A stretch of DNA of 64,000 nucleotides, from contig SMSO01000035.1 in NCBI GenBank assembly GCA_004764695.1, forward strand, positions 4,221,040-4,285,039, written 5' to 3'. Below, in pieces: positions 2-25,979 of this stretch. The notes under the pieces were generated by a model. The model was not told where the DNA came from and did no database searches. It saw only the letters and a list, made by a program, of their open reading frames with translations. Source of the DNA: Schizochytrium sp. TIO01. Its lineage: Eukaryota > Sar > Bigyra > Thraustochytrida > Thraustochytriidae. The position numbers and the translations under genes are program-made. Numbering within the stretch: position 1 is the first letter of the stretch; each line of letters begins with the position of its first letter.

Positions 2-3000
2 TCTCTTGACCCTGAAACTGAAAAGGCGTTGCTTATTCAGTCCATTCGTGTTAACACGCTTTCAAAGCTAACATTTGAGGATGCTAGTGCATTCCAAGGT
101 CTAATTCGAGACATCTTTCCGGGTGCAAAAACCTCCGATGTTGCTGATGAAGCTCTCGAGGAGGCAATCCGTATCGTCATGACAGATGAAATGAAGATCA
201 CACATAACGAGACTCAGGTTCGGAAAATGCTTCAGCTAAAAGAGTCTCTTGATCAGCGTATGGGTTGTGTCATAGTGGGTCCGAGTGGGTGCGGTAAAAC
301 TACCCTTTGGCAAGTTTTGCGTTCAGCTCTGAAAAAAACAGGCACCCAAATTAAGGTCTACGAGATGAACCCCAAGTCAATGCCTCGTGAGCGACTTCTT
401 GGACATATGGATATGGATACACGCGAATGGTTCGATGGTGTACTGACAAATGCTGCCCGTCAGGTTGTGAAAGAACCTGTTGAGGTCCGTTCGTGGATTG
501 TATGTGATGGTGATGTTGATCCAGAGTGGATTGAATCGCTCAATTCTGTGCTCGATGACAACAAGCTTCTCACAATGCCCAATGGTGAACGTATCTCTTT
601 TGGTCCCAACGTAAACTTCATTTTCGAGACGCATGATCTTCGATTTGCATCGCCAGCTACCATTTCACGTATGGGTATGATTTTTCTCTCTGATGAAGAC
701 GTCGATGTACAGCGACTCGTGGAATGCTGGGCTCCTACTATCCCGAGGCAATTTTATAAGGCGCTCGACTATGTTCTCAAGCGTGCCGAGCAAGTTGTTG
801 ATACCACATTGGTAGGACTTGTGCGGAATGGTCTCTCCCATGTGAGCAAAGTAGATTCAGATGATATCCCTGGATTTGTTACAGGTCTCATTCGTGGTCT
901 CGGTGGAAATCTTGCTCAAGATGCGCGAGAGGATTTTGCACGATTTTGTTTTGATTTGTTTGGAGAAGCACCTCCATCAGCAAAACGCCCGTTGGATTGC
1001 TATGCTGACCGCGGTGTTCTAGTTGCTTATGCTGGAAATAATTCACTAGAAGGTGAATTTGATCGACTTGGTTCAAGCGGTGCAATTCTTCAAACACCAT
1101 CTGTGCAGCGTAATGTTGATATGATCATGCCCTGGATGCACAGCATGGAGCCATTCATTCTTGTTGGCCCCCCAGGCTGTGGCAAAGGCATGATCCTGTC
1201 ACACTGTTTCCGTGAATGCTCTAAGACAACTGCCGTCACCACTCTTCATTGCAATGCTCAAACCACCGCAACTCACGTCATTCAAAAGATCCAGCAAGCT
1301 TGCTCGTTATACTCCACTAACACTGGTCGAGTATATCGACCACGTGAGGCAGAACGCTTAGTTCTCTACTTGAAGGACATCAACTTGCCCAAGCCAGATA
1401 AGTATGACACTTGCATGTTGATTGCATTTTTGCAGCAGCTACTTACGAGCAAAGGCTTTTACGACGATAATCTTGAGTTTCTCGGTATTGATCGTATTCA
1501 AATTGTTGCTTCAATGAACCCAGCAACTACTGTTGGTCGCCATGTTTTGTCGTCTCGTTTTACTGCAGCCATGCGAATTGCATACGTGGACTACCCAGAT
1601 GCGTCTGAGCTTGTGACAATTTACACTTCAATCTTGCAAACCGCTTTTGAAGATAGTAACACAACAACAAACCTGCGCAAGCTTGCAGAAACAATGGTTA
1701 ATATCTATTTTGAGGTTAAGCAGAAGTTTTCTGTGGATGACTACCGCCACTACCAATTCACGCCTCGCGATCTGACCGAGTGGGTGCTTGGTATGCTGCG
1801 GTATGATGATCCCGAACTTCTTGATGTCTTCGCGTACGAAGCACGCCGCACCTTTCGAGACCGCTTAGTTGGAGAGTCTGCTCGATCTGCATTTGATTCA
1901 ATTCTTACAAATATCATCCGTAAGGAATGGCAACACCGAGTAGATTATGACATTCTGTTCAGCTCGCTTGGCAATAGCGAAGATACTAAGCTTGTTCGTA
2001 CACCGATGAACGACTTTGAAGAAATCGTTAGCCATGGCCTTATGATGTATGAGCGTGAGGAGTCCGAACTAAATCTACGCTTATTTCCGCAAATGCTTGA
2101 GCACGTCGCCTATGTTGATCGTGTACTCAGTCAGCCTGGAGGCTCTATCATGCTTGTTGGACGCAACGGTGTGGGCCGTCGTACTTCAGTCATGTTGGTT
2201 GCACACATGCGAAAGATGCGTTTCATGACACCCACTTGTGTCTCGCAGCTCAAGGCCTTTCATGCTGATCTGAAACAAGCGATTGAGTCTGCTGGCGTTG
2301 GCGGAACCCCCACGGTATTATATGTGGAAGATCATCATTTGTTTGCGTCTGATGTGCTTGAGACAATCAACTCTCTCTTGTGCAGTGGGGAGGTTCCTGG
2401 TTTGTACAAGCACGAAGAACTTGCTCCGTTACTTGAGTCCTTACGAGAGGCCATGCAGGATGAGTCCGCTGAGGTACGATCTCCGTATGAATTCTTCCTG
2501 AGGCGCGTACAAAAGAATTTACATGTTTGCGTGTCTATGGATCCCACTCACAAAGAGTTCGCGCTTCGTTGTGAGAGCAATCCTGCACTTTACAACCGTT
2601 GTAATATACTCTGGTTCGGAACATGGTCCAATGATACAATTCGGGACTTTCCGCATCGTTTGCTGCCAGAATATTTTGGTGACTCAGCCCCTGAGGAGTG
2701 GGATGTGGAAATGCTTGAAAATGCTGCAGCTGCTGTACACTCTTCGGTTGCTGGTGCAACACCCCGAGAATTTGTTTACTTCTTGGAAACATTCAAGCAC
2801 TTATATGAGACCAAGGCAGGTGCAATCACAAAGAAGGTTTCGCAATTTTTAGGAGGTCTTAGTAAGCTTGAGGAAGCTGCCGCCACTGTTGATGATCTAA
2901 GTGATGAAGCCGCTCAGCAACGCGTGGAACTTCAACGTAAGCAGCAAGCTGCTGATGCTTCCATGGACGAAATCACCGAGGCTCTACAGCTGGCCAGTAA

Positions 3001-12603: not shown

Positions 12604-12669
12604 TATATATTGTCCAAAAGACTCTGTGATCTCAGCTGATCCGAGTCTTCGCTGACTCAATATCCGCCA
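12604..12669 (+). promoter_or_regulatory. TATA plus 37-nt leader module, copy 1
   Basis: TATATAT begins at 12604, 29 bp before CAGCTGA at 12633. The 37-nt module (12633-12669) ends at the tRNA and contains GAGTC-TTCGCT-GACTC. It belongs to leader subfamily A. Confidence 0.7.
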
Positions 12670-12756
12670 GCCGGAATAGCACAGTGGCAGTTGCGACCGT
12701 CTCATAGAACAAACTAAGATAGCGGCAGGTCGTGAGTTCGATCCTCACTTCTGGCA
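12670..12756 (+). tRNA. tRNA-Met: tRNA-Met (CAT), elongator, 14-nt intron
   Basis: Removing a 14-nt intron (GAACAAACTAAGAT) between positions 37 and 38 gives a 73-nt cloverleaf. The acceptor stem GCCGGAA/TTCTGGC has one G-T pair. The A box is TAGCACAGTGG, the anticodon loop is CTCATAA with anticodon CAT, the variable region is AGGTC, and the T arm is GTGAG-TTCGATC-CTCAC. C32 can pair with the intron G three bases from the 3' splice site, as tRNA endonuclease substrates require. G1-C72 and the normal T loop mark an elongator. Position 27-43 is an A-C mismatch and 13-22 is unpaired in every intact copy. A T5 run follows as terminator. Confidence 0.92.
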
Positions 12757-12800
12757 TTCATTTTTGGATTTTTTCCCTTCCTAAAAACTTGTGTATGTTG

Positions 12801-12866
12801 TATATATACGGCATTGAGATTTCATCTTTCAGCTGATCCGGGTCCTTACCGACTCATCATCCGCAA
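12801..12866 (+). promoter_or_regulatory. TATA plus 37-nt leader module, copy 2
   Basis: TATATATA at 12801, CAGCTGA at 12830. The hairpin is GGGTC-CTTACC-GACTC, in which the A-to-G change leaves a G-U pair so the stem survives. Leader subfamily B; the module ends in CCGCAA. Confidence 0.7.
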
Positions 12867-12953
12867 GCCGGAATAGCACAGTGGCAGTTGCGACCGTCTC
12901 ATAGAACAAACTAAGATAGCGGCAGGTCGTGAGTTCGATCCTCACTTCTGGCA
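12867..12953 (+). tRNA. tRNA-Met: tRNA-Met (CAT), elongator, 14-nt intron
   Basis: Identical to the copy at 12670 in exons and intron, only 197 bp downstream of it. A run of six T's within 10 nt of the 3' end is the likely Pol III terminator. The flanks differ from copy 1 beyond the leader module. Confidence 0.92.
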
Positions 12954-13256
12954 TTTATTTTTTCATCTTTACATGTAATCTTTTTTTTTGTTTGTGAAAA
13001 ATTAAACTAAAAGTTAACATTTACAATGATAATAATAGGAATAATAAGTAGCGAAAGGGGCTGATATATTATACTATTGTATTTTTCGTAGTTTTAGAAG
13101 AATCAATTTCATAATTAACTAAAATAAAAACTGAAAATTAATTAAACTTTAAATTTTAAGTAGAAACTGCAAATCTCTGCAAACTGACTTTTTTTTTCTC
13201 CAATCAATTGTGAACAGTTGTTGTAGGTCGCCGAGGAATTCGCTGCAACAAACCAT

Positions 13257-13342
13257 GCCGGAGTAGCACAGTGGCAGTTGCGACCGTCTCATAGAACAAA
13301 TTAGAAAGCGGCAGGTCGTGAGTTCGATCCTCACCTCTGGCA
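13257..13342 (+). tRNA. tRNA-Met: tRNA-Met (CAT) variant, 13-nt intron, no leader module
   Basis: The mature cloverleaf is intact with one compensated change: A7-T66 became G7-C66 (GCCGGAG/CTCTGGC). The intron is 13 nt (GAACAAATTAGAA) and keeps the G that pairs with C32. It lacks the CAGCTGA leader and any TATA-like motif at the expected distance. The A and B boxes are intact, so it may rely on internal promoters alone or be silent. Confidence 0.8.
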
Positions 13343-13469
13343 TAGATTCACTTTTTGTTGATCTGTGATTGCTGCACTCCTTTTTTAATTTAAAATGGAT
13401 GGTTCAGGTCAGTGCCTTGGCTGCATGTGAGAAGATACAAAGGGAGAATCCCTCGATTATCCAATCTAA

Positions 13470-13556
13470 GCCGGAACAATACAATGGCAGTTGCGATCGT
13501 CTCATAGAATAAACTAAGATAGCAGCAGGTCGTGAGTTTGTTCCCCGATTCTGGCA
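13470..13556 (+). pseudogene. Decayed tRNA-Met copy
   Basis: It aligns end to end with the family and keeps the acceptor stem and CAT loop. The T arm is broken (GTGAG against CCCGA, loop TTTGTTC), position 8 is C, and the anticodon stem has lost a pair (29-41). The B box is destroyed and there is no leader module. Confidence 0.85.
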
Positions 13557-13893
13557 AATGACTATTTTTTGTCGTGGTTGGTTATAGTCAGATGGGTTGG
13601 ACATGGAGATTTGCATCATTAACCTTTTTTTTTGTTTAAAAAAAAAAAAAAATTACATTCAAAAAAAGAAAAGAATAATTAGTTTTTATTCTTTCATGAG
13701 CGAAGTGCAGATTTCTAAACCGAGATCAAAACTACACGTGCGTGTTACCTTCTTTGTTAAAATATATCATCCCATATTCTTTTGTGTCACATCGCAGTTG
13801 TTTTCATATTTAATTATCTACTCTGGAAGGGGAAAAGAATGAGAGTCTTAAAAACGGAGGCTTGTTTTGCAAGAGCAGAAATTCACAACTTCA

Positions 13894-13960
13894 TTTATTT
13901 ACTACCTTGGCCGCATCGTCTCTCAGCTGATTCGAGTCCTTAATGACTCATCGTCCGCCA
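13894..13960 (+). promoter_or_regulatory. TATA-like plus 37-nt leader module, copy 5
   Basis: TTTATTTAC at 13894, CAGCTGA at 13924, hairpin GAGTC-CTTAAT-GACTC. Leader subfamily B. Confidence 0.65.
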
Positions 13961-14047
13961 GCCGGAATAGCACAGTGGCAGTTGCGACCGTCTCATAGAA
14001 CAAACTAAGATAGCGGCAGGTCGTGAGTTCGATCCTCACTTCTGGCA
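13961..14047 (+). tRNA. tRNA-Met: tRNA-Met (CAT), elongator, 14-nt intron
   Basis: Exons and intron are identical to the copy at 12670. A T-rich terminator follows the discriminator A. Confidence 0.92.
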
Positions 14048-14380
14048 ATTTAATTTTTTTAATGGTTGGTCATCATACCCCATCTCACACATGGTCATTT
14101 GTAAAACAAACCTTTTGTTGTTTCTTTTTTCACACAAAAAAGAGACCTATTTTGTTTTTATTCCTACATGAATAAAATGCATTTCTACACCGAGATCGAA
14201 ACCAACAGCTCGTTTTAACTTCTATATAGTTTCAATATGGTATCCTATTTTCTTCTTCGTCACATTACACTTGTTTTGATAATTAATTATCTACTTTGGA
14301 AGGGAATGTGAGTATCAAAAAATTAAAATTAATTTTAAAAATTCAAGTTTATTTTGTCAGGGCGGAATTTCACAACTTCA

Positions 14381-14446
14381 TTTATTTACTACCTGGCCGC
14401 ATCGTCTCTCAGCTGATTCGAGTCTTCACTGACTCAACATCCGCCA
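14381..14446 (+). promoter_or_regulatory. TATA-like plus 37-nt leader module, copy 6
   Basis: TTTATTTAC at 14381, CAGCTGA at 14410, hairpin GAGTC-TTCACT-GACTC. Leader subfamily A, although the more distal flank is shared with copy 5 of subfamily B. Confidence 0.65.
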
Positions 14447-14532
14447 GCCGGAATAGCACAGTGGCAGTTGCGACCGTCTCATAGAACAACTAAGATAGCG
14501 GCAGGTCGTGAGTTCGATCCTCACTTCTGGCA
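14447..14532 (+). tRNA. tRNA-Met: tRNA-Met (CAT), elongator, 13-nt intron
   Basis: Exons match the other copies. The intron has lost one A (GAACAACTAAGAT, 13 nt), so the only change falls in spliced-out sequence. A run of eight T's follows. Confidence 0.92.
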
Positions 14533-14917
14533 ATTAATTTTTTTTGTTTTTGTATTTTGTTGCTGGATCAACATAGAAGGAAAAGGAGGTTGACACCTCT
14601 CTCCAAGTCTTCCACAAAGTTTGACTCCAAGTAGGTACCTAGGCATTTCTACTATAAGTGTTTTAAATATTGTGAAACGAGAAATTGGAAAACCAGCGCC
14701 AGGTATGCATTGCATTGCATTTCTTTATGAACTGTTGCAAACTCTGTACGTACTACTCCTTCGTTGCTGAGTTATACTGCTTTGCAGTTGTTTTTTTGAA
14801 TGCGGGGTTATCTTTTAAAAACAAATGAAAGGCTGGGAGTATGAGTTGTTTGCTCGGGAGACCAATCACAGGTCTGTGTTCATGCAGAATGCACTGAAGA
14901 TTATTTATCAAACTTCA

Positions 14918-14984
14918 TTTATATGTGGCCTTGGCCGAATTGTCTCTCAGCTGATTCGAGTCTTCACTGACTCAACATCCGCCA
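14918..14984 (+). promoter_or_regulatory. TATA plus 37-nt leader module, copy 7
   Basis: TTTATATG at 14918, CAGCTGA at 14948, hairpin GAGTC-TTCACT-GACTC. The leader is identical to that of copy 6. Confidence 0.7.
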
Positions 14985-15071
14985 GCCGGAATAGCACAGT
15001 GGCAGTTGCGACCGTCTCATAGAACAAACTAAGATAGCGGCAGGTCGTGAGTTCGATCCTCACTTCTGGCA
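14985..15071 (+). tRNA. tRNA-Met: tRNA-Met (CAT), elongator, 14-nt intron
   Basis: Identical to the copy at 12670, with a T6 terminator a few bases downstream. Confidence 0.92.
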
Positions 15072-15690
15072 TTCTTTTTTCAAAACTTTTTCAACTTTGG
15101 AATTCAATTTCTCAATTTTTACCTTTTTAGATATCGTAATATCCTATTTGTAACTTTGTAGGCGAGCACAACCGTAAGCACATGCAAATTTACAGCAATA
15201 CTTTGAAGTTGTTTGTTAGCAAACCACTGCAACACTCTCGAGTAGTTGTGCTTCCACCGAATTGCAGTAGACTCAGACTCTCCAGCAACCCTTTGGGTGA
15301 GACTTGAGTATTGCTGCAATATCTTGCAAGCAGCGTTGGGATTTTATGTCAGCAAATCCTTTCTTTGTGATCGACAACATCTGCCAGATTGTTTGCCAAC
15401 CTCAATCATCAGAGTGTAGCTGCAAATCTTTTACCTATATTCATGATATTTTGAAGATGATCGATCATATTGAAGAAGAAAATAGTTACTAATCTCATCG
15501 TGCACGCATGCTTCAATAAAAGGACTTTACTCTCTAAGGTATACGTGAAGAACTTGAAAAGGAATGTGTGGATAGACAAGACGCTTCACATGGTCTAATT
15601 ATTGTTGATTGGAAGATGGCGCTTGTAAGTTTATCAGCTCGGGAGACAACGCAGAAGCACGTTGATAAGAGAGGATTCAGTTGGCACAGG

Positions 15691-15742
15691 ACTCTTGTGG
15701 TGCTCTTGTGGTGCTCTTGTGGTGCTCTTGTGGTGCTTTTGT
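15691..15742. repeat. 12-bp tandem repeat
   Basis: About four copies of a TGGTGCTCTTGT unit, the last with one change. It lies in the decayed stretch between tRNA copies 7 and 8. Confidence 0.9.
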
Positions 15743-15782
15743 AATGTACTTCAGAAGACGGAAGGTCAAAGTATGATGCCAG

Positions 15783-17421
15783 ATGGCTATCCTGGAGAGG
15801 AAATCGTTGCAGATCGTATGTAGGTTTTATCTCGGTCAAACTTTGCTTAGAAAAAAACAAGCGAACGACAGCTGTCGTAGCTTTGATGCTAAAATCTATC
15901 GTTATTTGAATGAAGACTGGGGTTCCATCATTGTAAATAACATATTTAAAAGTAATTATGATGGTTGTTGTTTTTCCTTACACCGATTCAGCTTCATTGT
16001 AATGCTCAATACGCGTTGACCTGATCAAAATCGAACAATATCTTCATTTTGAGACTCAATATGGAAAGTTGCCAGCATTGAGTCATGCTTCGCAACTGCA
16101 AGAAAAATGTGAAATCCTACATGAAGAGAAAATGAAAGAAGCCGTGCAAAACATGCCATGTCACCTACAGGATTTAAACGTGCTCTGGCGTGCTCTGGCG
16201 ATGTCCAACACTACAGTGTGCAGTTAATCGCCACGACTTACGAGACAATTCCTAGGCTAGATTGCACTCTTCGACTTACTGCAGATGCATCAAAAAGGCT
16301 AATGAAACGTTGTGATGCCACGTTTTTCAAATTTGACTAAAGCTCCAACTATTTCCAAACCTACGGAGGTGTTTTAGGCTGCACAAGATGACCGGAAGTT
16401 TCCGATTTGGGTACAATCCTACTTTAAATCAGCGATCCCTTCACTATTTCTTTTGCTCTTGGTAATAGACATTAATGAGGTGATCAAAGCTGTATGCCTC
16501 GCTCAAATTCTCCAGCATTTGCGAGTTTCCCACGTCTGGACGAGAAATTTAGAAATGTCGGTCCATACTGTGACCACGAGGTAGGTGTGATGGTAGAGAG
16601 TGATGACGAAAGAATGTCAGGAAATGACGAACAAAACGTTGCCACATATATTGAAAATTCGATAGATTACCTGATTGATAGCGAGACTCCTCCTCATACT
16701 CAAAATAGCCCATTTTAGCAAAAGATTCGCTGGGGTCATCAGTTGATTATGATGGAGAATCTGACCATTCCGGGTCCACTTTTGATGTAAGGTCTATTGA
16801 CAGCAATCAAATTGCTGAGTATTCTAATTTCCTGATGTTGCAATCGATACCCAGTTAAAAATTGATGTTCCAAGCAAAAGATACGAATATGCTCACTATA
16901 CCTCAATGGTAAATCCACCCTTACCGGTGTTAGGATAGTTACACTTCAAATTCTAAGGTCATCAAGGGCTCTATGCACGCATTAGAACCACAGGTTTCGC
17001 AAATCAGAGACCTCTGGTCCTTTCAAGGCTCTGATTCGCCATTATCTACAGCGAGAATTGGTTTTTCTATGCTGCATTCTCATAGTAAGATTAGTACTGA
17101 TCATACAGATATGTTCGACTACAAGTTTGCACAATCCACTACCGTCAAGTCAAGTGCACAGGGTTGGTGAGAAGACCTAAGAAGAGTAACGTATACGGCG
17201 GAGACTATGCGTTAATGCACTACAACGACATTAGAGTACGCTATAACAAAGACACAATCAATTCATCAGACGGGCTGGTGCCTTCTAATATGCTCGAAAG
17301 ACTCAAAGCCAAGCAGGGTAGGCAGTGCTCATACCCTAGCGTGTCGAACATCCACATGAGGGTTTCATTTCTGGTGAAGTTGTCTAAGCAGTCTGATTCC
17401 TGTGTCCTAATATTATCTTAA
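15783..17421 (+). pseudogene. Possible decayed or intron-split protein gene
   Basis: Coding-like fragments occur on the + strand in changing frames. About 16005-16228 reads RVDLIKIEQYLHFETQYGKL and ends at TAA. 16494-16718 is acidic, and about 16750-16857 contains DHSGSTFDVRSID. 16973-17170 contains QIRDLWSFQGSDSP. 17164-17421 contains MLERLKAKQG and YPSVSNIHMRV. The fragments look like protein sequence more than chance frames do, but I recognise no family and see no consistent splice sites. It could be a pseudogene, a dead mobile element or a rapidly evolving gene with introns. Confidence 0.3.
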
Positions 17422-18296
17422 GATAATTTGGATCGATAAGTGAGGTTGCAAATCTAATGTTTTTTCTAAGTACAGGGCAAAGTAACTGAAACGTATATAA
17501 ATATTAAGAAAATGAAGCCGAGAAATTTGATTGCCAAGCTGATCAAAGACTTGCCAGAAACACAAATAAATCCGGAATCAAAGAGGAGTTAATATTGGAT
17601 AACGAGGTACTTCCCAGGCGTGAACACAGAAAAATATCAAATACATTTAACAACATTATTAATCCGAAGTTAATGGACATATTCATTGCGTGAGTAGACG
17701 TATTATCCACTGCTGCCTTGTTGCGGCTACTTTAAACTGATCTCATCCATGCGTTTCACCATTGTTTACAAACTTGAAAATCTGTTCTAAAGCCTCGTTG
17801 CGGCAGACACTTTGCCAAGCCCTGGAGACAAATACGATAGCGCCTTCCGTTCTAGTTCGTCGCATCTGCAGCGCACTGGAAATGTCTTATTAACCTTTCA
17901 AAGGGTCGCTTGCTAGGCAACATTCTTATTCATTCCGGAAGTCTCTGATCTTGCGACGATGTGCCACACACTATCATTTGCACTAAGCAACAAAAAATTT
18001 AACCCATCATGATGGTAGATTTTTAGTCCTTATAAATAAAAAAGTAAATAGTAAAAGAGAGAAAACAAAAAGTACGACATCTGCATCAATCGATCAATAT
18101 TCGATTTCTTAATGCACTAGCGAGACCTTATTACCTCATGAAAAATGTGTAGTAAATTTCAAATACGTTTTCTTAGTTTGAGATTTTCTTCTGCAATTTG
18201 TCCAGAGGTCTTACCTGTGGGGCACGCGTTAAAGTCTGTAGCTCTTGGTGTCGTTTGATGTAAAAAATGTGAAACGATGTTTTGCTGACTTTAAGT
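17422..18296. other. Spacer inside tRNA array
   Basis: AT-rich. I see no gene, repeat array or tRNA-like sequence before the TATA element of copy 8. Confidence 0.5.
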
Positions 18297-18362
18297 ATAT
18301 ATATGTTCATAGCCGCTTCGTCTCTCAGCTGATTCGAGTCTTCGCTGACTCAACATCCGCCA
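18297..18362 (+). promoter_or_regulatory. TATA plus 37-nt leader module, copy 8
   Basis: TATATATATG at 18297, CAGCTGA at 18326, hairpin GAGTC-TTCGCT-GACTC. Subfamily A. CGTCTCT directly before the module is shared with copies 5 and 6. Confidence 0.7.
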
Positions 18363-18449
18363 GCCGGAATAGCACAGTGGCAGTTGCGACCGTCTCATAG
18401 AACAAACTAAGATAGCGGCAGGTCGTGAGTTCGATCCTCACTTCTGGCA
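18363..18449 (+). tRNA. tRNA-Met: tRNA-Met (CAT), elongator, 14-nt intron
   Basis: Identical to the copy at 12670 although 3.3 kb of unrelated sequence separates it from copy 7. A long T run follows. Confidence 0.92.
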
Positions 18450-18761
18450 TTTCTTTTTTTTCTCCTCGCTTTTTTTTTTCAATAAATGACTCAAATGCAA
18501 AAATTGTATATTAGTGTTTTGTCTTTGACGAGAGCTGCTTTTTGCTTAAAGAGCTGCTTCAGGAATAGATCACTTACGCTTATGGCCCTTGCTAGGTTTC
18601 AATGTATTTCTGCAGAATAAGGACACGGCTGATTTCAATTTCCTAAATCGGCTGCAGTCCAATATCTGGGATGGAAAATCATTCGCTCGGTTATTATATG
18701 GATAGATAGATAGTTCGATCAGAAAACATGCGACAACAAAAAATAAATATTTTATCCATAG

Positions 18762-18826
18762 TTATATACGCATGAGGGCTCTTCACTTTCAGCTGATTCG
18801 AGTCCTTACCGACTCATCGTCCGCAA
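18762..18826 (+). promoter_or_regulatory. TATA plus 37-nt leader module, copy 9
   Basis: TTATATAC at 18762, CAGCTGA at 18790, hairpin GAGTC-CTTACC-GACTC. Subfamily B, ending CCGCAA like copy 2. Confidence 0.7.
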
Positions 18827-18913
18827 GCCGGAATAGCACAGTGGCAGTTGCGACCGTCTCATAGAACAAACTAAGATAGCGGCAGGTCGTGAGTTCGATC
18901 CTCACTTCTGGCA
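18827..18913 (+). tRNA. tRNA-Met: tRNA-Met (CAT), elongator, 14-nt intron
   Basis: Identical to the copy at 12670, followed by TTTCTTTTTTT. Confidence 0.92.
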
Positions 18914-19441
18914 TTTCTTTTTTTATTTCTTTTTCATATTTATAATTTAACCACTTCGTTACCTTAACACTCTCACGAGCCCGAGGGAATGAGGTTTTAT
19001 TTTTATAAAAACTTGATTAAAACTCAATCAAAACAATCAAACACTGATACTACAATGACAGACCAAGTTGCAGATCATCTTTAAAAAACCAGTTCCCCTC
19101 CCCCACTGTTTATGTATGTGACAACCTAATCTCTCATGGCTTGACTGACAACCTCAATGTCACAATCTGATTGTATTCTTCCGTTTTATTATTATTTTAC
19201 TTGTACTTAAAGCTTGGCATTGTATAAGGAAAGCCCTTCGTAGGTGCACAGGGGTCAGGATCACTAAAATTTTCCAAAGCAAAACGGGTTTTCTGTGAGT
19301 TCTGCCCAAAAGGTACATTTTAACTCATCGCCTCTGTACTTCTGAGTAGTGAGAGTGAAGGGTTTTCAAACAATTTGTTATTGATACCTATAGCCAAAGA
19401 CAGACTCGAGTTTTTAAGTACACAAAACTGTAGAGTAGGTT

Positions 19442-19506
19442 TATATATGGCATTAGCTTGCGGAAGTATCAGCTGATTCGAGTCCTTACCGACTCATCAT
19501 CCGCCA
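19442..19506 (+). promoter_or_regulatory. TATA plus 37-nt leader module, copy 10
   Basis: TATATATGG begins at 19442, CAGCTGA at 19470, hairpin GAGTC-CTTACC-GACTC. Subfamily B with a CCGCCA end. Confidence 0.7.
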
Positions 19507-19593
19507 GCCGGAATAGCACAGTGGCAGTTGCGACCGTCTCATAGAACAAACTAAGATAGCGGCAGGTCGTGAGTTCGATCCTCACTTCTGGCA
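19507..19593 (+). tRNA. tRNA-Met: tRNA-Met (CAT), elongator, 14-nt intron
   Basis: Identical to the copy at 12670, followed by TTTCTTTTTC. It is the last member of the array; the next gene begins 611 bp downstream. Confidence 0.92.
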
Positions 19594-23290: not shown

Positions 23291-25012
23291 CTAGCTGGCA
23301 GATGTCTTTGGAACGACAATGTCGGAGCGAGCCTTGGGGACGAGCCAAAGGTTGTGTGTAGATTGATCAGAGGAGTTGCATAGGCCCATAGTAAGTCCGA
23401 TTGTAGGGCATATGACGTTCGGGTCCTCATTTGACTCTAAAGTAAAAGAAAAATTCTGCAAAAGCGTTGCGGCCAAAAGCTTTGCTTCGAATTTTGCCAT
23501 ATCCTTACCAAGGCAGCTACGATTTGCAGCCTGAAATACAGGGAAGGCAAATGCATCAGGCTCAACAAATGGGATCCAGCGCTCCGGATCAAATTTCATA
23601 GGATCTGGATAGTATGCAGGATTGCGGCCCATTGCATAAGGAGAATACACGAATCGAGTGCCGGCAGGGAATTCTGTGCCATCAGGAAAGCAAAGGTCCT
23701 TCTGTGCGATTTTAACATTTTGGGGCACTGCAGGGTGTAGTCGCATGGCTTCATAGAGACAGCCATTCAAGTATGGTAGGTTGTATACCACTTCTTCGTA
23801 GGTCGGGGATTGGCCATTGAGGGTGTCGAGTTCCTCTAAGAGCTTTTGTTGAACTTGAGGGTTGATTGAGAGCTCATAAAATAACCAAGTAAGCGTGCAT
23901 GCTGTGGTATCGCGGCCTGCGATTACAAAATTGAGGACGATAGCAACAAGTTCCTCATCTGTCCAAGAAACGGCCTTAGAAGGGTCTTTGCTGAAGCGGG
24001 TGTCGCTTTTCAGAATGTTCGAGATTAAGTCTTCCCGGTTTTCGCGATCAGTTACAGCACGCAAGCGGGCAACCTTTTCGTACGTCATTCGGTGAAGGTC
24101 AGATATATGGCGCTCAAAGCTCTGATACTCCTTGCTTCTTTTCTGAAGAAGCTTCATGCAAAGACTTGTCGAAAAGTCATAAAAGAGAGGGCCAAAGGGG
24201 AAGGGCAGGCAAGCGATGGCAAGAAGTGCAGGCGTTTCACCCCAGTAAAATTGCAACATGGAGCGGTGTGCACCGTCGAAGGCGATAGAAACAGCCTCAC
24301 AGTCCTCCTTTGATGCTTCCTCATCCCCAAAAAGGATTTCTTGGATCGATTCAAACGTAAATGTGAAGAACTCCTTTTGCATGTCTATTGGAGTCGCCCC
24401 CTTGGTCTTATCGCACGTGTTCTGAGCAGAGTTCTTTTCTGCAATCGGGCGCAAAGCTTCAACCATAGATTTAGCATGGCGCTGAAATACGGCAAACATC
24501 ATATTGGAGAATTTTGCCCGAGTAAAAATCAACGCAGCAGCTTTCCGCTGCCGATACCAACGGTCGTGCTCATCAGGGTGCATATCACCATGGCGAAGAA
24601 CAAAAATTGAATGCCCAATAAATTTGCGCATTAATCCGAAAAGCCTGTCATCAGGACCAGGTTTGGTTGCATTAGCGAACTCATCCTTTAGCATAAACTT
24701 GATTGCCTTTGGAGAGTTAAAGACAACTTCAAAACCTGGCATTTGCCATTTGACGAGATCTGCATCTCCATAGGGCAGAACCTCGTTGGCGGAAAAGTCG
24801 AAGAAGTGATTGAAGTTCTTGGCAACCTCCTTGCCACTCCAATCCGTGGGTTTTCCGGGAAGGTTTTTGGTGGCTCTCTTGAATCTTATCATCATCCGTA
24901 GAAAGAGAAAGCCCTTTACAGACATTTGTATAATCACAAAAGCCGCATACGCTTTAAGTAAAGTTTTGACCTTGTTGACTCCCTCGAGTCGGCTCAGGAC
25001 TGATTGCCCCAT
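23291..25012 (-). CDS. Cytochrome P450, membrane-anchored, tandem copy 1
   Basis: 573 residues, resembling the CYP4/CYP86/CYP704-type fatty-acid or alkane hydroxylases; the substrate is inferred only from that likeness. An N-terminal anchor helix lies at about 18-43. The I-helix oxygen-binding motif is AGRDTT (365-370), the K-helix ExxR is E421/R424, and PERW is at 476-479. The haem loop FQAANRSCLG (493-502, ligand Cys500) has Ala where the FxxGxRxCxG consensus has Gly. Intact, single exon, same strand and length as the next gene, with which it shares long stretches such as RWYRQRKAAALIFT. The two are therefore tandem duplicates. Confidence 0.95.
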   Translation of the reverse strand: MGQSVLSRLEGVNKVKTLLKAYAAFVIIQMSVKGFLFLRMMIRFKRATKNLPGKPTDWSGKEVAKNFNHFFDFSANEVLPYGDADLVKWQMPGFEVVFNSPKAIKFMLKDEFANATKPGPDDRLFGLMRKFIGHSIFVLRHGDMHPDEHDRWYRQRKAAALIFTRAKFSNMMFAVFQRHAKSMVEALRPIAEKNSAQNTCDKTKGATPIDMQKEFFTFTFESIQEILFGDEEASKEDCEAVSIAFDGAHRSMLQFYWGETPALLAIACLPFPFGPLFYDFSTSLCMKLLQKRSKEYQSFERHISDLHRMTYEKVARLRAVTDRENREDLISNILKSDTRFSKDPSKAVSWTDEELVAIVLNFVIAGRDTTACTLTWLFYELSINPQVQQKLLEELDTLNGQSPTYEEVVYNLPYLNGCLYEAMRLHPAVPQNVKIAQKDLCFPDGTEFPAGTRFVYSPYAMGRNPAYYPDPMKFDPERWIPFVEPDAFAFPVFQAANRSCLGKDMAKFEAKLLAATLLQNFSFTLESNEDPNVICPTIGLTMGLCNSSDQSTHNLWLVPKARSDIVVPKTSAS

Positions 25013-25979
25013 GACGTTGAGGCTGCAAACAGATAACTATCTTCTGGTCTGGAGTGGTCCCAGGTCTCTGAATCTCCGTAGGGTCTCTGCGTTCGCCTAC
25101 CTTGTAGTCGAGGTGTCGTCGGCGCCTCGCGGTCAAGACGTGCCCTCGCAACCCAAAAGTAATGAGAGAAGTACAGTTTGAAGTTTGGTTCGTGCATTTT
25201 TGACACCTAAAGTCTTTTACCACTTTCCAGGGGACTCTGTTTCTAATTTCCAAACCTGCAAAATTTCAGGAAAGGTCAAAGACATGAGCTCCGGAACGAG
25301 TGCATCATTCGTGTTGATTCTATCGACGCCGCGCCGCACATGCGTAGCTGCAGCCTCAGACAACCCAGATTTTCATGGGCACAAGTCTTCAAGTTCTGCT
25401 AATTTGATGAAATGTTGTGCGCCTGAAAAAATCTAGATGATACCTTTCTTTTTATCGCTGTTTTATTTTAATTTTTATAAATTTTAATTTGTAGTAAAAT
25501 AAAAAAATATTAAATTAAAAAAAAAAAGTTTTCGTTCACATTGACGGTACCTAAGCCATTGCAAAAATGTATCTATATGAAGCACGTGCCAAGATACCTA
25601 CTAGTGGTTTATATTTTGCTTGTCCAAGCAGACTGCAGATTTAGAATGTCCGGGTCATTAAGCTATTTCTAACTGTGATGAAAGTTTGCTTTTGTGAATT
25701 GGCAAGTGGCTGGGTTGGTGAGAGGGATTGACATCCGCGTTGACGTCAGAGAAATGACCTCGCAAAATGAAGGTTGCATAAACCGTAGTGAAGTTAGTAT
25801 TTTGCCGAGGTCAGGAGCTTTACAAGAGGACCCCCCTCCCGAACGGGGTTCGATTGCTACGAACTGAGGTGGGGTAGTCAAGGTCACTGCGCAGGTTTGG
25901 CTATTTTGATACGAAATAGGGAGTATGAAATGACTTGATATTTAGTTGGCGATGAGGTAAGAGAACACGTGTCTAATTA
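25013..25979. other. Spacer between tandem P450 genes
   Basis: It should contain the promoter of P450 copy 1. A perfect CRE-type palindrome TGACGTCA lies at 25741-25748, and an A/T-rich stretch at about 25440-25530. A GGTTCGATT at about 25848 resembles a B box but has no cloverleaf around it. Confidence 0.5.

Follow-up and report, generated by a model that had tools for sequence, protein, structure and literature searches.

A constant 37-nt module before the tRNA-Met genes of Schizochytrium sp. TIO01 and putative TATA-set, self-folding leaders at several tRNA isotypes

Why do eight tRNA-Met genes of one cluster share an upstream module of exactly 37 nt when the sequence beyond it differs from copy to copy? 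The genes lie in a 64,000-nt stretch of DNA (here "the window"; contig SMSO01000035.1, positions 4,221,040 to 4,285,039, assembly GCA_004764695.1) of the thraustochytrid Schizochytrium sp. TIO01, one stretch within a genome of 64 Mb and 37 contigs. A sequence-only reading had proposed that a TATA element further upstream directs RNA polymerase III (Pol III) to start at or near CAGCTGA, the motif that opens the module. Our comparisons make it fairly likely that a TATA element sets a Pol III start about 29 nt downstream, that the resulting 37-nt Met leader folds on itself and is cut off by RNase P, and that the same layout recurs in other isotypes.

A constant module upstream of tRNA-Met

Between positions 12670 and 19592 of the window a tRNA with an intron and the anticodon CAT occurs ten times, and a whole-genome DNA search returned the same ten and none further. 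From inspection of the anticodon loop we read them as elongator tRNA-Met; ARAGORN lists nine of the ten and calls them Leu, since it places the intron elsewhere. The tRNA bodies retain D and T arms and are identical in seven copies. The genes, with the evidence for each, are:

12670..12755, + strand: tRNA-Met(CAT), elongator, with intron, copy 1 (module, genome DNA search, ARAGORN)
12867..12952, + strand: tRNA-Met copy 2 (module comparison, genome DNA search)
13257..13342, + strand: tRNA-Met variant, module-less (Rfam scan, genome DNA search)
13470..13555, + strand: tRNA-Met, diverged, 86% identity (genome DNA search)
13961..14046, + strand: tRNA-Met (module comparison, genome DNA search)
14447..14531, + strand: tRNA-Met, intron one base shorter (module comparison, genome DNA search)
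14985..15070, + strand: tRNA-Met (module comparison, genome DNA search)
18363..18448, + strand: tRNA-Met (module comparison, genome DNA search)
18827..18912, + strand: tRNA-Met (module comparison, genome DNA search)
19507..19592, + strand: tRNA-Met (module comparison, genome DNA search)

The module precedes eight of the ten copies and is absent at 13257 and at 13470, the latter probably a pseudogene. Its eight occurrences are:

12633..12669, + strand: leader module, 37 nt, Met copy 1
12830..12866, + strand: leader module, 37 nt, Met copy 2 (GGGTC/GACTC, one G.U)
13924..13960, + strand: leader module, 37 nt, before tRNA-Met 13961
14410..14446, + strand: leader module, 37 nt, before tRNA-Met 14447
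14948..14984, + strand: leader module, 37 nt, before tRNA-Met 14985
18326..18362, + strand: leader module, 37 nt, before tRNA-Met 18363
18790..18826, + strand: leader module, 37 nt, before tRNA-Met 18827
19470..19506, + strand: leader module, 37 nt, before tRNA-Met 19507

Upstream comparison bears out that the module is 37 nt long and free of indels in all eight, and that the sequence beyond it differs among the copies, as the sequence-only reading had held. Mean pairwise identity is 0.87 over the 37 nt directly before the tRNA and falls at -37 to 0.41, with 0.30 and 0.26 in the next two 37-nt stretches. CAGCTGA by itself is fairly common, with 23 matches on the two strands of the window where 13.1 are expected (2 of 100 shuffles contain that many). 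Exact matches to the longer motif TCAGCTGATNCGNGTC number eight genome-wide, all at the eight module-bearing tRNA-Met genes. A check for the module at loci lacking a tRNA, which the sequence-only reading had called for, thus returned none in the genome. A transposon arm or the head of a short interspersed element is ruled out on the same count, all eight matches adjoining tRNA-Met.

The eight modules share a fold, a single interrupted hairpin, ..((.(((..(((((......)))))...))).)).., in which all 80 pair cells of the eight sequences are standard. Variation among the copies avoids the stem: 9 of the 11 variable columns are unpaired (9/17 unpaired vs 2/20 paired columns vary, p=0.006), and the two changes in paired columns both yield G.U. 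The fixed length of 37 nt fits a leader that is folded.

TATA elements and their spacing

A TATA-like element, loosely defined, starts 64-67 nt before the tRNA and 27-30 nt before CAGCTGA in all eight copies, as had been claimed from the letters alone. Under a strict definition (TATA[AT]A or TATATG) six of the eight carry one within -67..-62, a number that none of 5000 dinucleotide shuffles reached (mean 0.09 copies, maximum 2); at 13961 and 14447 the sole candidate is TTTATTTAC. The elements are:

12604..12609, + strand: TATA element, Met copy 1 (-66)
12801..12808, + strand: TATA element, Met copy 2 (-66)
13894..13902, + strand: TTTATTTAC element, non-strict, tRNA-Met 13961 (-67)
14381..14389, + strand: TTTATTTAC element, non-strict, tRNA-Met 14447 (-66)
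14918..14925, + strand: TTTATATG element, tRNA-Met 14985 (-67)
18296..18305, + strand: TATA element, tRNA-Met 18363 (-67)
18762..18769, + strand: TATA element, tRNA-Met 18827 (-65/-64)
19440..19448, + strand: TATA element, tRNA-Met 19507 (-67/-65)

The distance from TATA to module was said to resemble a usual TATA-to-start distance, and it agrees with this genome's own U6 gene, where TATATA lies 29 nt before the 5' end (as placed by the Rfam model). At TATA + 27-30 the Met genes have CAG rather than the CAA start motif. A start at the module is supported by the sharp drop in identity at -37 and by a TATA spacing that is kept where the flanks diverge. Pol III probably starts near -37 at these genes, which would yield a structured leader; the proposed start at or near CAGCTGA is supported, at the level of sequence comparison, by the U6 spacing, by CAAC at TATA + 26..32 in other tRNA genes and by hairpins that accompany far TATAs.

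The module-less variant at 13257 has no TATA hexamer upstream and carries CAAC 10 nt upstream of the tRNA. Before it lies a hairpin of its own:

13220..13251, + strand: leader hairpin of unrelated sequence, 9-bp outer stem, before module-less tRNA-Met 13257

TATA distance and predicted leader length in other isotypes

The putative TATA-set layout is not special to tRNA-Met; several isotypes of the genome seem to have it, and it is these that tip the balance. We sampled 118 tRNA genes (76, nine of them in the window, plus 42), and removing redundancy at 70% identity over -60..-1 left 89; a first, smaller set comprised 50 non-redundant genes of the 76. The sample leans toward the isotypes that our searches listed and covers part of the genome; three of 20 further stretches (L064, L066, L067) contained no ARAGORN tRNA, and searches with an initiator-tRNA query and a glycine pattern gave no matches. 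A strict hexamer, sought within -90..-30, was found in 39 of the 89 genes, which we divided into near-TATA (predicted leader <24 nt, n=23) and far-TATA (n=16).

The position of the first hexamer is largely a property of the isotype. It starts at -35 to -38 in Tyr and at -37 and -39 in Val-TAC, at -39 to -46 in Phe (with one at -68), at -49 to -51 in Thr (one at -62), at -55 to -64 in Val-GAC, at -65 and -66 in Met and at -77 and -79 in Lys; Asn positions vary widely, between -43 and -75. In the 39 strict-TATA genes CAAC occurs 17 times at TATA + 26..32 vs 5 times in the rest of the interval from TATA + 6 to the tRNA. Taken with the U6 spacing, the isotype-specific TATA distances and the position of CAAC suggest that TATA-to-start spacing is constant and that leader length varies. 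Predicted leaders are 36-37 nt in Met, 26-35 in Val-GAC and 47-58 in the Asp genes with TATA, and 6-11 nt in Tyr, Val-TAC and Val-CAC genes with TATA; four of five strict-TATA Phe genes have a short leader. The succession of TATA, an interval of about 29 nt, a predicted start, a folded leader and the tRNA is seen also at Lys, Asp and Val-GAC genes and at one gene each of Thr and Phe.

Some further observations concern these isotypes. The tRNA genes tend to cluster by isotype (C30 Asn, C31 Tyr, C36 Thr, C13 Phe, C35 Lys, C24 Asp, C34 Met), and introns are predicted in nuclear tRNAs other than Met, namely several tRNA-Ser, Thr-TGT and Tyr genes (L028-L068). At L048 (G000:C31:7396500-7398400), TATA-less tRNA-Tyr copies 4-8 have stable upstream folds (to -12.1 kcal/mol), while the four TATA-bearing Tyr genes look short-leadered. 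Many leaders of tRNA-Thr-AGT (L049, L057-L059) end, by eye, in GAGCTTGT immediately before GCTCGG, and their GAGC could pair across the cleavage site with the first tRNA bases.

Leader hairpins follow TATA distance

Folding is concentrated directly before the tRNA: across the first, smaller set of 50 genes the mean folding z is -0.84 in -40..-1 and lies between -0.14 and +0.15 in six outer 40-nt windows. Within -40..-1 the mean z of the larger set is +0.20 for near-TATA genes vs -1.46 for far-TATA genes (p=3.4e-5), with -0.44 for the 50 genes without strict TATA, and the near/far contrast holds when genes are averaged by isotype (7 isotypes in the far group and 8 in the near group, p=0.0019). 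Over the predicted leader itself far genes average -1.37, compared with -0.43 and -0.40 in two equal-length stretches upstream. Two paralogue comparisons agree, with a hairpin at the Thr gene whose TATA is at -62 and at the Phe gene whose TATA is at -68, and none at their near-TATA paralogues. A cruder score, the best inverted repeat in 45 nt, separates the groups less clearly, with 10/16 far, 22/50 no-TATA and 5/23 near genes beside 72/178 upstream control windows.

Covariation in Asp and Lys leaders

That a far TATA goes with a leader hairpin was predicted for tRNA-Asp before those genes were read, and 18 of 19 Asp leaders have z < -1.3 (mean -2.15; the exception is 0.04; 10/19 at p <= 0.05). 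A strict TATA is present in ten Asp genes, always at -76 to -87, and nine of these ten are among the leaders with z < -1.3; a near TATA was found at none of the 19. For the nine TATA-less genes a leader of 48 nt was assumed; CAAC stands at -48 to -50 in 9/19. In a fixed window of -40..-1, where the first hairpin is truncated, the mean z is -1.15.

Two hairpins make up the fold of the Asp leaders. Of their 198 pair cells, 98.0% are standard (0/500 shuffles as high) and 11 show a two-sided change (equalled by 0/500 shuffles); the count used 18 of the 19 leaders, two of the 19 being identical over the part used. In Lys 98.4% of 126 cells pair, and three of nine pairs are changed on both sides (1/500 shuffles). 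The Lys count used 14 of 16 distinct leaders, L038 and one L042 copy being left out for indels, and the MAFFT alignment of all 16 misplaced the insertion in L038; by eye, L038 keeps GATGC/GCATC, and the dropped L042 copy is weaker. In Lys and Asp, then, the pairing of the putative 5' leader is kept by compensatory change.

Leaders, tRNA folding and processing

We compared partition-function folds of leader plus tRNA for native vs shuffled leaders. The acceptor stem is likelier with the native leader in 41 of 51 distinct cases (p=3e-8, the leaders not being independent), including Met 9/9 (13257 among them), Asp 18/18, Lys 11/15 and Phe 1/1. In the non-redundant set, where 15/16 far, 20/23 near and 47/50 no-TATA genes could be used and the rest had no clear tRNA length, the effect is modest for far (11/15, p=0.04) and no-TATA genes (30/47, p=0.049) and absent for near genes (9/20, p=0.94) and for a 40-nt control upstream of TATA (9/15, p=0.23). 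From these modelled folds we infer that long leaders may be kept if they fold on themselves.

The sequence of events would be as follows. The upstream TATA would position Pol III, with a start about 29 nt downstream; at the eight tRNA-Met genes this would fall at or near CAGCTGA and give a primary transcript with a 37-nt 5' leader. The leader would fold into its one interrupted hairpin, staying clear of tRNA folding, and RNase P, perhaps the protein-only PRORP, would remove it at the tRNA 5' end. A PRORP gene is present in the genome; a nuclear RNase P RNA was not found by a search that failed in control genomes too and is hence uninformative. A more far-reaching proposal, which we hold to be possible though rather doubtful, is that, genome-wide, start distances proper to each isotype and folded leaders kept by compensatory change act in cis as a folding guard and as a handle for PRORP, and that the cut leaders may persist as small RNAs, specific to the isotype, by which tRNA output is reported or regulated.

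Weighing the alternatives

Several results weigh against a TATA-set, folded leader. Over half of the sampled genes lack the element in its strict form (50/89 non-redundant genes within the range searched), as do 9/19 Asp genes. A hairpin signal is missing from the leaders of three far-TATA genes (Arg-ACG with z 0.45 and, at 0.30 and -0.18, two of the three Asn genes), only 5/16 far leaders reach p <= 0.05 singly, and strong inverted repeats occur also in 72/178 upstream control windows. No two-sided, compensatory pair change is seen among the eight Met modules, and in Asp 71/500 shuffles yield as many pairs with a two-sided change. The benefit of the native leader for the acceptor stem fails for Val-GAC (2/7) and Thr (0/1). 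Nor do the strand tests single out RNA: sense and antisense folding do not differ over 50 non-redundant genes (p 0.85), far genes with 4 G.T vs 6 A.C do not favour the sense strand, and Met modules fold better antisense in 7/8. By isotype the sense strand folds better in Asp, leans that way in Lys (11/16) and is even in Asn (7/14).

These mixed strand tests leave some weight to a DNA palindrome read by protein. The module would then be an inverted repeat to which a regulatory protein binds, transcription would start a few bases before the tRNA (for example at a CAAC-like site at -12 in some copies) and the TATA would act remotely or be idle. TCAGCTGA, the core of the CAGCTGA motif, is indeed palindromic, CAAC lies 13-10 nt before the tRNA in 3/8 Met modules, and both strands fold equally overall, Met better in antisense. 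Changing stem sequences make this less likely: they vary within families and between isotypes while pairing is kept, which is ill-suited to one binding protein. The hairpins also track TATA distance, Asp favours the sense strand (16/19) with 20 G.U vs 1 A.C cells among its counted pairs (RNA rules guided the choice of structure, a bias toward G.U), and CAAC at -12 is missing in five of the eight Met copies, whereas all eight preserve the TATA spacing. On balance we think a protein-bound DNA element unlikely.

The modules could also be alike merely through recent duplication or concerted evolution of the tRNA-Met genes, without any independent function. All Met copies do lie within one 7-kb cluster, seven of the tRNA bodies are the same and other isotypes are clustered too. 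Identity nevertheless ends at -37, yet the TATA beyond holds its spacing in diverged flanks; variation avoids paired columns; and compensatory changes are found in Lys genes on several contigs and in 19 Asp genes. Duplication alone is rejected on the Lys/Asp covariation, the Met column pattern and the TATA spacing, and we give a functionless module very little credence. About equally improbable is a dicistronic unit in which the module is a separate small RNA, cotranscribed with the tRNA and freed by RNase P. Its anatomy would be that of the TATA-set leader itself, and the leaders are isotype-specific and structured, with two hairpins in Asp. Against it, most Met loop columns vary, and the leaders are shorter than the usual box C/D or H/ACA RNAs. 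No Rfam family except tRNA reaches threshold in the window: the scan at gathering scores returned one tRNA only and no snoRNA, lending no support to a known small RNA, and is incompletely sensitive, missing the intron-bearing Met copies.

Other features of the window and the genome

Two adjoining cytochrome P450 genes and a tandem array lie elsewhere in the window:

23291-25036, - strand: cytochrome P450 gene
25980-27779, - strand: cytochrome P450 gene
39638-39834: tandem array, 25 copies of the 8-base unit TTTGTATG

The mitochondrial contig, C37, is ~41.7 kb, and C15 seems to hold the same sequence nearly twice (tRNA positions recur at 41.1 kb; L001-L003). In 3 kb of the mitochondrial contig open reading frames avoid TTA, with none among the 15 Leu codons of a nad3-like frame; a TTA near the end of an rps12-like frame may be a stop. 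We take this avoidance to fit the Thraustochytrium mitochondrial code (table 23).

Relation to known systems and significance

Plant tRNA genes have TATA and CAA motifs, with functional CAA at -1 to -10; CAA motifs also occur up to -50, and the authors suggest that many transcripts could begin further out (PMC11700998). The same source describes an intron-bearing elongator tRNA-Met as general among the plants studied. The Schizochytrium genes resemble this plant type in the upstream TATA, a candidate CAA start motif (CAAC in part of the sample, not at the predicted Met start), the intron-bearing elongator tRNA-Met and a T-run after the gene. They differ in that several isotypes have their TATA 20-40 nt more distant from the tRNA, the intervening sequence being a putative folded leader, and leader structure is not described in the part of the plant account drawn on here (PMC11700998). 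A short leader with its start at -1 to -10 is likewise not what is predicted for Met, Val-GAC and Asp.

In fission yeast, insects and Arabidopsis a TATA-like element is among the determinants of tRNA gene transcription by Pol III (PMC11346459); these share the TATA, and the portion of that source considered makes no mention of a long, structured leader. In the permuted tRNA genes of red algae an upstream TATA-like sequence sets the start (PMC3978253), whereas the genes here have normal order and A and B boxes. The TATA spacing resembles that of a U6-type Pol III promoter; the tRNA bodies here retain their D and T arms. Pre-tRNA misfolding is countered by La and modification enzymes (PMC5372738), so that the guard there is a protein and the one proposed here a leader hairpin in cis. 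The sections considered of two further papers (PMC4919922, PMC9705548) have no bearing on eukaryotic leader hairpins. A survey of the open-licence literature by title yielded none on isotype-specific structured leaders of nuclear pre-tRNAs, which does not prove their absence.

Eukaryotic pre-tRNA leaders are usually regarded as short, discarded ends. In this genome the leaders of several isotypes appear to be long and subject to structural selection. If this is true, the Pol III start would be set by the TATA and free to shift outward, provided that the added leader folds on itself. Leader function would then become testable, and the Phe and Thr genes with and without a far TATA and hairpin would serve as natural experiments.

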